A DNA stretch of 64,000 nucleotides from Bacteroidota bacterium (lineage in GTDB: Bacteria; Bacteroidota; Bacteroidia; 2-12-FULL-35-15), in the NCBI GenBank assembly GCA_947504725.1, contig CANNHN010000006.1, positions 1 to 64,000 of the forward strand, read 5' to 3'. A program made the position numbers and the translations under genes. Under the pieces are notes generated by a model. That model worked only from the letters and a program-made list of their open reading frames with translations. It was not told the origin of the DNA and searched no databases. The number at the start of each line of letters is the position of its first letter. Within the stretch, counting starts at the first letter, position 1. Of the stretch, positions 25,941 through 46,020 are shown piece after piece.

Positions 25941-25998
25941 TTCGGAGTCAGGAGTTTGGAGTTATTAGACTTTTGCGAAGATGCCTCTCCTCGTATTC

Positions 25999-26100
25999 GT
26001 CATTCCGTGCCACGACACGGAATCTGTCGGTTAAGCGCACTGCTCATATTCGTGAGATCCCGCCCATTCGACTACGCTCAGGGTGACAGCACGGGATGAC
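25999..26100. repeat. nested palindromic repeat carrying an inserted second motif
   Basis: The element starts GTCATTCC and ends GGGATGAC. The left arm forms ATTCCGTG-CCACGA-CACGGAAT (26002-26023). The right arm has ATCCCG (26057-26062) pairing with CGGGAT (26092-26097), but its loop holds the second motif CATTCGACTACGCTCAGGG instead of the usual six bases. It lies between the arginase gene and argS. Confidence 0.75.
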
Positions 26101-39785: not shown

Positions 39786-40187
39786 TTGAAAGAAACTATA
39801 ACAATACAACAACATTTAGATCTAAAAACTTCTGAAGTTAATTTTAGAAGTGATGGAATAGTGAACCTTCATATCAAAGCAAATAAATCTCTTACTCGGG
39901 AAGATACCGTGAAGATGATAGAATATATTGGTGAAATTGGAGAAGGTAAAAAATTTCTAATATTAATTACTACCGGTGAGTTTTCTCTTGTAGATAAAGA
40001 AGCTAGAGAATTTGGTGCAACAGAAGCAGGCAATAGATACACCTTGGCAGCTGCAATAGTTGTGAAAAGTTTAGCGCAGAAATTATTAGGAAATGCATAT
40101 ATTAAAGTGAACAAACCATCCGCTCCAAATAAACTATTTACTGACCAACAAAAAGCAATAGATTGGTTAGGAACGATTTTAAAATAA
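39786..40187 (+). CDS. STAS/SEC14-like small protein, copy 1
   Basis: The protein has 133 residues from a TTG start; there is no nearer ATG in frame before the conserved part. The sequence runs 'VNFRSDGIVNLHIKANKSLTREDTVKMIEYIGEIGEGKKFLILITTGEFSLVDKEAREF' then 'NRYTLAAAIVVKSLAQKLLGNAYIKVNKPSAPNKLFTDQQKAIDWL'. Alternating strands and helices with a final 'xxxAxxWL' helix match small SpoIIAA/STAS-like proteins of Bacteroidota (also labelled DUF7793 or SEC14-like). These may act as anti-anti-sigma-type switches or lipid binders; neither is shown. It is 7 bases upstream of a clear paralogue. Confidence 0.65.
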   Translation: MKETITIQQHLDLKTSEVNFRSDGIVNLHIKANKSLTREDTVKMIEYIGEIGEGKKFLILITTGEFSLVDKEAREFGATEAGNRYTLAAAIVVKSLAQKLLGNAYIKVNKPSAPNKLFTDQQKAIDWLGTILK

Positions 40188-40194
40188 AAAACAA

Positions 40195-40590
40195 ATGAGT
40201 GAAGTTACAATTGTAAAATCGGCAACAACTTTTGGCTCAATCATTTCTTTAAGAAGTGATGGAATTATTCAAATTGACATGAAAGCCAATAATACACTTC
40301 AGTTAGTAGATGCCCGACAAATGGTAAATGCTTTTGCCGAAATAGGAGGAGGAAAAAAATATCCACTTTTATTTATTGCTGGAGATTTTGCTTTAGCCAG
40401 CCCTGATGCTCGAAAGTATGCATCCGGAATAGAAGCAAATCAATACACGTTAGCAAGCGTGTTCGTGGTAAAAAATAGCATCCAAAAAATAATGGGCAAT
40501 GCTTATATCACCTTCAATAAACCAATTACTCCAACAAAAATTATGACCCGAGAGGAATCAGCAGTAACTTGGTTAAAAAGTTTTTTATAA
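40195..40590 (+). CDS. STAS/SEC14-like small protein, copy 2
   Basis: The protein has 131 residues and is clearly homologous to the upstream copy: RSDGIIQIDMKANNTL, EIGGGKKYPLLFIAGDFALASPDARKYA, NQYTLASVFVVKNSIQKIMGNAYITFNKP, ESAVTWLKSFL. Shared positions are the RSDGI strand, the G-x-GKK turn, the Q/RYTLA helix start and the GNAYIxxNKP strand. The serine in the 'ASPDAR' turn lies where STAS phosphoserines can occur, but the alignment is too loose to assign it. The tandem pair forms an operon and suggests a recent duplication with divergence. Confidence 0.65.
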   Translation: MSEVTIVKSATTFGSIISLRSDGIIQIDMKANNTLQLVDARQMVNAFAEIGGGKKYPLLFIAGDFALASPDARKYASGIEANQYTLASVFVVKNSIQKIMGNAYITFNKPITPTKIMTREESAVTWLKSFL

Positions 40591-40778: not shown

Positions 40779-43475
40779 ATGCTTACTCGAATCTCTTTAA
40801 TTAACTCAAAAGGTTACGGCAAGGCCGAAATGAAACTCGACAATTGTGATTCTATCCAATTGGTTGGGCCGAACAACATTGGTAAATCAACGCTAATCTA
40901 TGCGCTGAATTTCCTGTTTGTGGTTGACGGACAGAAAATGTCGTTCAGTGGACAGCGTAAAGGTGATAAAGAAACAATCCATCACTACTTTCCAACCCAT
41001 AATAAGAGTTTCTTGATATTTGAAATCAACAAAATGGGCTACTACTGCATTTTGGTAAAACGAAACACAGATGGTGAGTTGGAATATTATAAAATTGAAA
41101 GTGATTACAACGAAGATTTTTTCTTTGAACTAGAAGGTACTCACCAACGTTTGCTAAGTTTTGACGAAGTTATCGAGAACTTAAATAAACGAGGTGTTAT
41201 GCATAGCAAGTTTGCTACAAAAACAGATGTGTTTAACGCTGTTTACCACCGCGGAACAAAAAACAATGCGGTAGTTTGGTTGGAAGATACAGTAAAAGCA
41301 GACGGATTGAGCAATAACTTCTCAAAAGTATATCGTTACTTGATTAACTCAAAATTAATCACCAACAAAACATTGAAAGAATCATTGATTATTGCTGATA
41401 ATCGCGAAAATGAAGGATTAAATTTTTCACAGAAAAACAAAAAAGATATTACCGATTTACTTCGTATCAACGAAGAAATTAAAAGCATTAAAGCCGTTCG
41501 TCCTGACTTCTTAGACTTCCGTGAATTAGTAAAAGTTCACAATTCAAAAACAACGATTGTAAGTGAATTGCTTTATGCATTCAATACGGCCTACACTGCT
41601 GCAATTCCAGAATTGGAAATATCATCAGTTGAGCGAGGCCGACACATTGCAGCAGTTCACAACGAAATCAATGAAATTTTAAAACCAAAAGAATTGAATT
41701 TCGCTTCTTACATTGGAGAAAAGAATGCTGAGATAAAAAACAAAACTACTTTCTTGAACGAAAAGCAATTAGAATTGCATGAAATCAATAAATACGAAAC
41801 AATTGAGTTCTTGAAAGAGTCCATGAAGAATTTGGATCAAGAACGTAAAGAAATCGAAAACAGAATCACTACAATTGAAAGCCAAAAACTATCAAGCAAA
41901 CATTTGGAATTTCGTTTAGAAAAAGTGACCGATAAAATTGCTTCTGTTGAAAACCAAATCAACAACTACAACAACTTATTGATTCACAAAATTTCTGATG
42001 ACGAAAAAACGAAACAGTTATTAAATGCGATTCTTTCTGAGCAAGTACTAAGTTTACCAAGCAAACAAATCAAAAAGCAGATCAAAAAAGTATCTGATAA
42101 ATTGATGAACATTTTTGATGGTGAAATTGATATTTCAAAAGGATTAGAATTAACTGAATTCCGTTCTGTAAAAGAATTGAAAGACGAACTAAAAGTTTTG
42201 CTTGCAGAGAAAAAAATAACGGAAGAACTTTTAAAAACAGTTGTAGACAAAGAGAAAACAGATTTCAAATTGAAAAGTATTCTTGGAGAACTTGAAGTTA
42301 TCAAAGAAAAAATCAAAGGAATTGAAACTAAACCACAATTAGAAAGAGCTGTTAAAGGCATAATTGAAGAAATCAAAATTTTCAATGAAGAGAAGAAGGA
42401 ATTAGAATTACAATTGAATGATTTAGTGAAGGAAATTGCTTCTAAACAAATCATGTTAGATAAATTGAATGAAGAAAAACGCAATCTTGAACTTCGAGTA
42501 AAAGAATTGAAAGACCGTAAAATGGAAATGGAATCTATTGAAGTTGAACCTCGCGAATACGAGACAAACGACAACTTAGATTATATCTATTCAAAAATTC
42601 AAATCCACCAAAAAGATCGTCACGATATCAAAGCAAACAAAGATGTTGTTTTTGAAGGACTAAAATATCGTTTGAGAAGCAGCATTGCTGACGAAATAGA
42701 ATTCATCACTTTTGTTGAAGAAGAAATTGCTTGTTTGAGCGACAAAGAAAGAAGTATTGACGGTTTATTGTCAAGTATTTCTACTCAATTTGCAAATCCA
42801 GCTTTTACTTTGTTAAAACGTTACGAGGAGTTCAAACAATTCGTTTACGACAAGTTCAATTCAAAATTGGCTACAACACGTATATCAAATATCGAATCAT
42901 TAAAAATTGATTTGATTGATAACGAACGTATCATGAGTGAATTAAAAGCTATTAGTTCAATTCAGGAGTTTAACGGACAAATGAGTTTTGATTTTGATCA
43001 ATCTGAAAACTTAAAAATCCTAAACACTTATTTAGATACTGGCAAAAAAGTTCATTTTGATGAATTGTTCAACATCGAATTGTTATTAGAAATCAAAGGA
43101 ACAGAAAAACGCGTGGATTTAGCTAACCAAGTTGAGTCGGATGGAACAGATAGAATGATTCGTTTAGTTATCATCATGGCAATCATCAACCGTTTGGCAA
43201 TTACTGACGAACAAAACAAGATTACCTTATTTATCGATGAGGTTGCAACGATTGACAAACAAAATCGTCCAGAGCTTGTTAAATTTTGTAACGCACACAA
43301 CTTTATTCCAATTTTTGCTGCACCAGATGCAGTAGAAGGATTCAACAAATATTATTTCATTTATCCTTCAAAAGGAAAAATCAATATCAACGAAAAGCAA
43401 AATGCGGTGATTGTTGAAAGAAATGGTGTAGTTGAAAAAGTTGTTGGGAAGAAGAATTTAAAGAATTTGAACTAA
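40779..43475 (+). CDS. SMC-like ATPase of a MukB/MksB-type condensin
   Basis: The protein has 898 residues. The N-terminal ABC head has Walker A GPNNIGKST at 30-38, with 'IQLVGPNNIGKSTLIYALNF' typical of SMC/Rad50/MukB proteins. The middle (about 285-670) is coiled coil, rich in Glu, Lys, Leu and Ile, probably folded back at a small hinge. The C-terminal head has an atypical signature S787-D-G-T790 in QVESDGTDRMIRL and Walker B with D820-E821 in ITLFIDEVATID, then an H-loop-like region. The arms are about half the length of those in E. coli MukB. It leads a three-gene operon with kleisin-like and MksE-like genes, which decides the call. It probably entraps or extrudes DNA using ATP. Confidence 0.75.
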   Translation: MLTRISLINSKGYGKAEMKLDNCDSIQLVGPNNIGKSTLIYALNFLFVVDGQKMSFSGQRKGDKETIHHYFPTHNKSFLIFEINKMGYYCILVKRNTDGELEYYKIESDYNEDFFFELEGTHQRLLSFDEVIENLNKRGVMHSKFATKTDVFNAVYHRGTKNNAVVWLEDTVKADGLSNNFSKVYRYLINSKLITNKTLKESLIIADNRENEGLNFSQKNKKDITDLLRINEEIKSIKAVRPDFLDFRELVKVHNSKTTIVSELLYAFNTAYTAAIPELEISSVERGRHIAAVHNEINEILKPKELNFASYIGEKNAEIKNKTTFLNEKQLELHEINKYETIEFLKESMKNLDQERKEIENRITTIESQKLSSKHLEFRLEKVTDKIASVENQINNYNNLLIHKISDDEKTKQLLNAILSEQVLSLPSKQIKKQIKKVSDKLMNIFDGEIDISKGLELTEFRSVKELKDELKVLLAEKKITEELLKTVVDKEKTDFKLKSILGELEVIKEKIKGIETKPQLERAVKGIIEEIKIFNEEKKELELQLNDLVKEIASKQIMLDKLNEEKRNLELRVKELKDRKMEMESIEVEPREYETNDNLDYIYSKIQIHQKDRHDIKANKDVVFEGLKYRLRSSIADEIEFITFVEEEIACLSDKERSIDGLLSSISTQFANPAFTLLKRYEEFKQFVYDKFNSKLATTRISNIESLKIDLIDNERIMSELKAISSIQEFNGQMSFDFDQSENLKILNTYLDTGKKVHFDELFNIELLLEIKGTEKRVDLANQVESDGTDRMIRLVIIMAIINRLAITDEQNKITLFIDEVATIDKQNRPELVKFCNAHNFIPIFAAPDAVEGFNKYYFIYPSKGKININEKQNAVIVERNGVVEKVVGKKNLKNLN

Positions 43476-43492
43476 GCAATATACTATAGCTA

Positions 43493-44710
43493 ATGAAAGC
43501 AGAACCAAAAACAATACTCCGCTTTTTACTGGAACATTATGATGTGATTGCTGAATTGTTTGAAACACAATCCAAAGAAGGCATCATTAAATATGAAGTA
43601 TTAAATCAAATTGTAGCGAAACACGAAAGTGATGTTCGTCCGCAGTTGATTGAATACAAGATATTGAGTCCGGTAAACGACAACTACGAGATTCGTACTG
43701 TTTATTACAACTTGATTGAATTCGTATTGAGCGAGTTCAAACCAATGCTGCCAGAAACAATTGAAAAGTACCATACGTCAATTGCAGAATTGTTCCGCAA
43801 AATCAGAGAAAATATCAATGGCGATAAAGTAACGTTAAGCCAACGCTTGAATGACTTAGCGATTGAAGTTCGTTCGTTCTACGAAATGGTGGAACGCAAC
43901 ACTCAAAGTTTATTGCAAGAAACGCGTGAATTAAAAGCAAACGTTAAAAAAATCAATTATCGCGAAAAAATTGTTCGTGCTTCTCGTTGGATTGACGAAT
44001 ATATTATTCCTTTAAATAAAATTTTGGATATAAATCATTCAACATCTGTAGCAAACAAATTATACGAAATTTCTGAATTTTCGAACAAGTATCGTTTAAA
44101 TTTTGATGATGAAAATGCTCGCATTCAGTTCGAAAAGCTTTATTTTCAACTAATTCAGGTGAATGACAATTTATTACGTCAATCAAAAATTTTGACAAAT
44201 GAATTATTGCCATTAATTGAACGTATCAGAACGGAGTCAATTATTTTAACTGGGTGGATTACTTATTTGAAAAATCCTTACAAACGAAAATCACCTAAAT
44301 TACTTAAACGAAAAGAAGTTTCTGTTTATTCAAAAGATACGTTTTACAATGCTTCGGAGATATTTGAACAATTTAAAAACGAAACAGATGTTTATTTTGA
44401 AGAAGAAGAAAACGAAGCAGAAAAGTGGATTTTTGACAAAGAACATTATACAAAGAAATTGAAAGACAATTTACCTGTCCACAACTTCTTTAACTGGTGC
44501 AACAAAACATTAAAAGAAGACTATAAAAAAGTAGAAATTGAAAAATTCTTTGCTTTAACTACATTAGCTTTTGATGAAGATATTGAGCGTGAATATGGCG
44601 CAAAACCAGAATTCGATAAAATCAAAATCAACGACTTAACATTAACAGTTCCGAAAGTTACTATTAACCAACAATCACTAATAATCGATACACAAGATGG
44701 AATTTCCTAA
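43493..44710 (+). CDS. kleisin-like subunit (MukF/MksF/JetA type)
   Basis: The protein has 405 residues and is mostly helical. The N-terminus (1-85) reads as a winged helix: ILRFLLEHYDVIAELFETQ, IIKYEVLNQIVAKHESDVRPQLIEYKILSPVNDNYEI. A long helical section (95-255) with 'SFYEMVERNTQSLLQETRELKANVKKINYREKIVRASRWIDEYI' resembles the MukF/MksF middle domain. The C-terminus (270-405) is charged and could contact the ATPase head. It is 17 bases after the SMC-like gene and overlaps the next gene by 14 bases. The kleisin call is by operon position and domain layout; sequence similarity is not obvious by eye. Confidence 0.6.
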   Translation: MKAEPKTILRFLLEHYDVIAELFETQSKEGIIKYEVLNQIVAKHESDVRPQLIEYKILSPVNDNYEIRTVYYNLIEFVLSEFKPMLPETIEKYHTSIAELFRKIRENINGDKVTLSQRLNDLAIEVRSFYEMVERNTQSLLQETRELKANVKKINYREKIVRASRWIDEYIIPLNKILDINHSTSVANKLYEISEFSNKYRLNFDDENARIQFEKLYFQLIQVNDNLLRQSKILTNELLPLIERIRTESIILTGWITYLKNPYKRKSPKLLKRKEVSVYSKDTFYNASEIFEQFKNETDVYFEEEENEAEKWIFDKEHYTKKLKDNLPVHNFFNWCNKTLKEDYKKVEIEKFFALTTLAFDEDIEREYGAKPEFDKIKINDLTLTVPKVTINQQSLIIDTQDGIS

Positions 44711-45224
44711 CCACCACCGCCAAATCGTAGAAGATCTTATGTCGGGCAAATTTATGCTGCCTAACGAACGTACATACCAAACGGTAAAGGACAACGAGCA
44801 ATCGTATACCTATTTTTTCAAAGCGTCATTCAATTATGAATTGCGCTTAACTCAAGACTACGCATATCTTGTATCTGAAGAATCAGCAGAAATGTTGTCT
44901 CGAGACATTTGTATTTTCATTTCTTTATTGAGTTATGAATTGGACAGAGATGGAAAAAATTTCTTGGAAAGAATTCAATTCTCAGAATTTGAAATGGAAG
45001 AAATAGAAAACTATTTCACCAACTCATCATACATCGATTTGATTCTATCAAACAAGCAATTGAAAGATGCGGATTCTCGTAAGAACTTCATTAACACCTT
45101 AAATAGAAGAAACATCATCGAAAAAACAGGTGATAACCGTTTTGTATTTACATCTGCTCACAAATTCTTCATGGATTTCGCTACAGACATCGTGAAATAC
45201 GAAAATGCTGAGAAAGAGGAATAA
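44697..45224 (+). CDS. MksE/MukE/JetB-like winged-helix subunit
   Basis: The protein has 175 residues. The N-terminus 'IVEDLMSGKFMLPNERTYQTVKDNEQSYTYFFKASFNYELRLTQDYAYLVSEE' and the C-terminal 'ADSRKNFINTLNRRNIIEKTGDNRFVFTSAHKFFMDFATDI' match the two winged-helix halves of MukE/MksE: a 'LMSGK' start, a 'YAYLV' beta strand, then a helix that ends 'RNIIEK' before a wing. In this class the E subunit clamps the kleisin and contacts DNA. Its start lies inside the upstream gene (14-base overlap), which implies translational coupling. No SD is apparent. It is the last gene of the operon. Confidence 0.72.
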   Translation: MEFPNHHRQIVEDLMSGKFMLPNERTYQTVKDNEQSYTYFFKASFNYELRLTQDYAYLVSEESAEMLSRDICIFISLLSYELDRDGKNFLERIQFSEFEMEEIENYFTNSSYIDLILSNKQLKDADSRKNFINTLNRRNIIEKTGDNRFVFTSAHKFFMDFATDIVKYENAEKEE

Positions 45225-45251: not shown

Positions 45252-45319
45252 GTCATCCCGTGCCGCGACACGGGATCTCACCATTAAGGAACAGATACCG
45301 TGTCGTAGCACGGTATGAC
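45252..45319. repeat. nested palindromic repeat (GTCAT family), copy left of the YdeI-like gene
   Basis: The element starts GTCATCCC and ends GTATGAC. It holds two perfect hairpins with 8-bp stems: ATCCCGTG-CCGCGA-CACGGGAT (45255-45276) and ATACCGTG-TCGTAG-CACGGTAT (45295-45316). The arms differ at stem position 3 (C:G versus A:T), with pairing kept. Confidence 0.85.
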
Positions 45320-45327
45320 GTATTAAG

Positions 45328-45899: not shown

Positions 45900-45985
45900 G
45901 TCATTCCGTGCCCCGACACGGAATCTCCCTGTTAGTGGCGACAAATATCCTAATGAGGAGATCCCGTGTCGTAGCACGGGATGAC
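45900..45985. repeat. nested palindromic repeat (GTCAT family), copy right of the YdeI-like gene
   Basis: The element starts GTCATTCC and ends GGGATGAC. Two perfect 8-bp hairpins are ATTCCGTG-CCCCGA-CACGGAAT (45903-45924) and ATCCCGTG-TCGTAG-CACGGGAT (45961-45982). The stem base pair at position 3 is T:A in the left arm and C:G in the right. Confidence 0.85.
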
Positions 45986-46020
45986 ATTAAAAAATACACA
46001 TACGTTCCATTAAAGATTCG

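Follow-up and report, generated by a model that had tools for sequence, protein, structure and literature searches.

A compact MukBEF-like operon, probably encoding a chromosomal condensin, in Smc-less Bacteroidota

Three genes, B, F and E, found in a 64,000-nucleotide stretch of DNA of a Bacteroidota bacterium (the window), code for the subunits of a compact SMC machine, as identified by profile or by predicted fold. Our preferred reading, which we hold to be reasonably probable, is that BFE is a MukBEF-like condensin of the MukB/JetC type, related to defence systems, that lost its nuclease and acts as the chromosomal condensin of Bacteroidota devoid of Smc. ORF calls confirm the layout proposed from the sequence alone: the genes are adjacent and co-directional, in the order B-F-E, with a 14-base overlap of F and E (Table 1). 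The gene directly 3' of E codes for an OmdA/DUF1905 protein according to Pfam and no JetD follows, as had been claimed. Directly upstream of the operon lie two adjacent DUF7793 (SpoIIAA-like) genes (39786-40590), found as single copies at the equivalent place in some genomes of the same genus. The palindrome-like GC-rich 24-mer ACCGTGTCGTAGCACGGTATGACG, a REP-like element, occurs three times in the window, near copies included (25998-26021, 45297-45320 and 45963-45986), none being expected by chance.

Table 1. Genes of the BFE operon and features of their products, in window coordinates.
Feature	Position	Strand	Basis or remark
B: MukB/MksB/JetC-type SMC ATPase, 898 aa	40779..43475	+	ORF, AF2, structural matches, hhalign
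Walker A GPNNIGKST, residues 30-38 of B	40866..40892	+	N32, N33, G35, K36, S37 invariant
First coiled-coil arm of B, ~residues 218-395	41430..41963	+	AF2 model
Small hinge-like region between the B arms, ~residues 396-463	41964..42167	+	AF2 model; no Pfam SMC_hinge match
Second coiled-coil arm of B, ~residues 464-697	42168..42869	+	AF2 model
Degenerate ABC signature S-D-G-T, residues 787-790 of B	43137..43148	+	S787, G789, T790 invariant
Walker B LFIDE, residues 817-821 of B	43227..43241	+	D820, E821 invariant
F: MukF/MksF/JetA-type kleisin (best match), 405 aa	43493..44710	+	ORF, AF2, PDB fold matches, weak NF040857 match
N-terminal winged-helix-like domain of F, residues 1-80	43493..43732	+	AF2 secondary structure
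Helical bundle of F, residues 87-260	43751..44272	+	AF2; aligned with the MukF middle region
C-terminal winged-helix-like domain of F, residues 316-393	44438..44671	+	AF2
F/E gene overlap, 14 nt	44697..44710	+	Same length in most relatives
E: MksE/MukE-type KITE subunit, 175 aa	44697..45224	+	Pfam MksE PF21980

The AF2 model of B (mean pLDDT 81, pTM 0.53) displays a head and two arms with a small hinge-like region between them. The Walker A, Walker B and S-D-G-T motifs read from the sequence are all present and their key residues are invariant among 45 aligned homologues (Table 1), the signature taking the family-wide form S-x-G-T. The arms had been described as about half those of MukB; set against the known length of MukB they measure roughly half to two-thirds in the AF2 model, bearing out that they are shorter. 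Pfam matches of B are generic P-loop models, and searching PDB sequences with the three proteins yielded coiled-coil or chance matches only. MukB chains are six of the seven best structural matches of B in Foldseek and all seven in VIA, their heads aligning with Z scores of 22.8-23.9 (best match: Z 23.9, rmsd 4.1 over 387 residues). Rad50 (Z 19.9) and JetC (Z 19.6) come next. Profile comparison with hhalign relates the N-terminal head also to canonical long MksB with 98.7% probability. By its predicted structure the head of B is of the MukB type rather than of the RecN/Rad50 type, and a better alignment with RecN, SbcC or RloC, one of the doubts raised in the sequence-only reading, was not obtained.

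The 175-residue E gives a clear profile match to Pfam MksE (PF21980; 2.4e-21, 77.2 bits for a cut-off of 27 bits), which agrees with its proposed MukE/MksE layout and, at the level of sequence, makes it a member of the MksE/MukE family of KITE subunits. The assignment of F draws mostly on its fold. The AF2 model, built from 45 homologues (mean pLDDT 79, pTM 0.44), has an N-terminal winged-helix-like domain, as the sequence had led to expect for this mostly helical protein, followed by a helical bundle and, after a linker, a second winged-helix-like domain at the C-terminus. Only two PDB structures match it with E <= 0.001, JetA (8q72_E, 5.8e-5) and MukF (9gm7_C, 1.9e-4). In a second structural comparison MukF tied with unrelated helical bundles (Z ~12-14) and the kleisin assignment rests therefore on the whole-chain ranking together with the operon context. 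At the level of sequence F hits the 412-position Mks model NF040857 of NCBIfam weakly (4.9e-5) and gives nothing significant to MukF or JetA in the PDB sequence search or with hhalign, the latter run against canonical MksF-type and Wadjet-type kleisins. The proposed MukF/MksF/JetA identity was hence not recovered by sequence profiles beyond that weak hit, but it was by the predicted fold, for which a MukF/JetA-type kleisin is the best match. By analogy with MukF, the C-terminal domain of F is expected to bind the B head.

From homology and fold we infer that F, as the kleisin, would link two B subunits, E being the KITE subunit, and that ATP hydrolysis by this assembly would drive DNA entrapment and loop extrusion. 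BFE falls in the MukB/JetC branch of SMC machines. BFE shares with Escherichia coli MukBEF three subunits of the same kinds, a B head best matched by MukB, the winged-helix, helical-bundle and C-terminal winged-helix layout of F, the lack of a nuclease and its presence in genomes without Smc. It differs in the gene order, which is F-E-B in E. coli and usually in MukBEF and MksBEF systems, a feature not essential to the mechanism, in the size of B (898 aa as compared to 1486 aa for E. coli MukB), and in that most of the length shows no detectable sequence identity. MksBEF and MksBEFG of Pseudomonas and Corynebacterium are akin through the Pfam family of E and the head of B; gene order and arm length are different and MksG is absent here. 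In C. glutamicum MksB has 1111 aa and the order is F-E-B-G (PMC10123090). The Wadjet system JetABCD has the same motor subunits by fold, and some BFE relatives carry a JetD_C/DUF7281-like gene; it differs by its nuclease gene, located at the operon end and not between B and F as in those relatives, and none of B, F and E has a significant Jet match in PADLOC.

The operon is core in the genus. B is present in all 30 same-genus genomes that are at least 82% complete, while the four genomes without it are at most 80% complete. In many genomes of the genus the operon is flanked by mtaB upstream and lgt downstream, so that the choice between core synteny and a variable island, left open by the sequence-only reading, falls on a core location with partly conserved flanks. 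A scan of genome contigs found 164 relatives, of which the 80 kept span freshwater Bacteroidota, Flavobacteriaceae, Hymenobacteraceae and Cyclobacteriaceae. Inserted genes aside, all 78 loci in which one contig carries both B and F have the order B-F-E; two of these loci are identical to others. When the same genome pairs are compared, dN is in most of them lower for B, F and E than for mtaB and lgt, synonymous sites being saturated or nearly so, and the operon is under strong purifying selection. Judged by its order kept in 78 loci and by its low dN, it is far beyond chance. Locus L048 (G012:C100) contains a stray piece of a second B gene: in a 98-aa ORF, 40 residues match the N-terminus of B with 90% identity.

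No condensin-like complex other than BFE was found in the source genome. Above the family cut-off, SMC_N matches RecF and two further frames there, one of RecN size (555 aa) and one of ABC type (621 aa); none has the length of Smc. SMC_hinge was found in none of 36 genomes of the genus and in 34 of the 198 sampled genomes of the class. ScpB was not found in the source genome; in a 60-genome sample it is present exactly in the four hinge-bearing genomes, which supports the call that Smc is absent. Canonical long MksB, detected strongly in 33 genomes of the class, was not found in the source genome either. A chromosomal role is thus the best reading of BFE, since the nuclease is absent and no other condensin-like complex was found, and it gains weight from the absence of Smc-ScpAB, with which BFE would share its presumed function. 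Smc and BFE do not occur together in any genome of the class sample, where about 4 would be expected (P 0.01 counted by genome; P 0.11, not significant, counted by family). Only two of 40 BFE genomes have Smc, that of Pontibacter vulgaris and that of a Cyclobacteriaceae MAG. These two are nuclease-positive, and Smc is found in none of the 32 that are nuclease-free.

The absence of Smc need not require BFE: in 104 of the 198 Bacteroidia sampled, searches for the Smc hinge, MksE, BFE and canonical MksB all came out empty. That these bacteria live nonetheless, together with the alignment of chromosome arms reported in Bacteroides without a recognised condensin (PMC10197239), lends some credit to BFE being an accessory MksBEF-like condensin next to another, undetected machine that is the main chromosome organiser. 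We consider this unlikely for an operon that is found in every near-complete genome of the genus and codes for the sole complex of its kind detected in the source genome. Other Bacteroidia (L144, L145, L146, L148 and L149) have MksF-E-B operons in the canonical order, without obvious MksG and with a long B of ~1100-1200 aa when intact; they make up another condensin family, separate from BFE, in members of the class that lack Smc.

The family of BFE operons spans nuclease-positive and nuclease-free forms. A gene for a protein of ~265 aa, D, is found in eight related operons (L034, L103, L118, L125, L127, L129, L130 and L132), always in the interval between B and F; Nonlabens and Mesonia have such B-D-F-E operons. 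In D the Toprim-type motifs E-N and D-Y-D are conserved, and the protein gives weak hits to DUF7281 (best 3.2e-5) and JetD_C (best 0.0028), both below the curated cut-offs, and to PADLOC JetD1 (2.1e-4). Profile searches of the source genome found no JetD_C or D-type gene, and no JetD homologue thus came to light elsewhere in it. The lack of JetD noted from the sequence holds accordingly for the source operon and genome but is not a trait of the whole family, some relatives keeping the JetD-like nuclease and being presumably anti-plasmid systems. One loss of D is directly evidenced by L086, the nuclease-free sister of L103, whose B/F gap retains the last 40-odd residues of D (HMM 5.1e-9); a remnant sought in the 330-nt B/F gap of L063, from the same genus, was not found (HMM E 0.77). 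At least five changes are needed to explain the presence and absence of D on the B tree, from which the very long branch of L138 and the contigs ending after B were left out. The distances of D correlate with those of B (Mantel r 0.86, p 0.003). Close pairs account for most of this correlation; the pair L103 and L118, with 31% identity for D and 60% for B, fits poorly. Since D sits at the identical place in all eight operons, a single origin followed by repeated loss is favoured, which is the direction of evolution that we infer; regain is possible since D evolves or moves in ways that B does not fully track.

One same-genus genome has a second, divergent copy of the operon (L034, G015:C31:1-17000) with genes for a WYL-type regulator, B, the JetD-like nuclease, F, E, an SbcD-like and an SbcC-like protein, in this order, and two resolvase-type recombinases nearby. 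It looks like a mobile defence island alongside the core nuclease-free copy. Weak D-type Toprim matches occur in two other genomes of the genus (G020:C5:12853-13464, E 1.3e-8; G008:C4:17653-17919, E 1.4e-6). The nuclease-positive relatives, and this second copy among resolvases, are what speaks for BFE being itself a Wadjet-like plasmid-defence complex, which would recruit a nuclease from elsewhere or silence plasmids by compaction without cutting. The missing D gene, the lack of PADLOC Jet matches and a core presence with conserved flanks, unlike a defence island, render this rather improbable, slightly more so than an accessory role. Very improbable and disfavoured is the reading of B as an SMC-like enzyme of repair or defence (RecN, SbcC/Rad50 or Lamassu LmuB) with F and E as unrelated neighbours, as its generic P-loop hits and the rank of Rad50 after MukB might suggest, given the higher scores of the MukB heads, the MksE identity of E, the JetA and MukF matches of F and the gene order kept across Bacteroidota.

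We thus return to BFE as a chromosomal condensin, in line with the earlier suggestion of a chromosome-organising rather than a plasmid-defence complex, which the core location, the genome free of JetD and the absence of Smc-ScpAB support. In the source lineage, without the nuclease, the remaining motor probably takes over the chromosome-organising work of the missing Smc-ScpAB. More tentatively, and with somewhat less than even confidence, we propose that the sole housekeeping condensin of several Bacteroidota lineages without Smc arose from a compact Wadjet-like plasmid-defence machine by loss of its nuclease, in a takeover independent of that by gammaproteobacterial MukBEF. In a Hi-C study none of the known condensins was found in the Bacteroidetes under examination, and the authors concluded that species of Bacteroides rely on SMC complexes yet to be identified (PMC10197239); the BFE operon is a concrete candidate condensin for part of the Bacteroidota. 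MukBEF and MksBEF were suggested in a review to descend from defence systems via loss of JetD (PMC10586767). This idea is directly testable in the compact BFE family, because nuclease-positive and nuclease-free forms coexist in it together with a decayed remnant.
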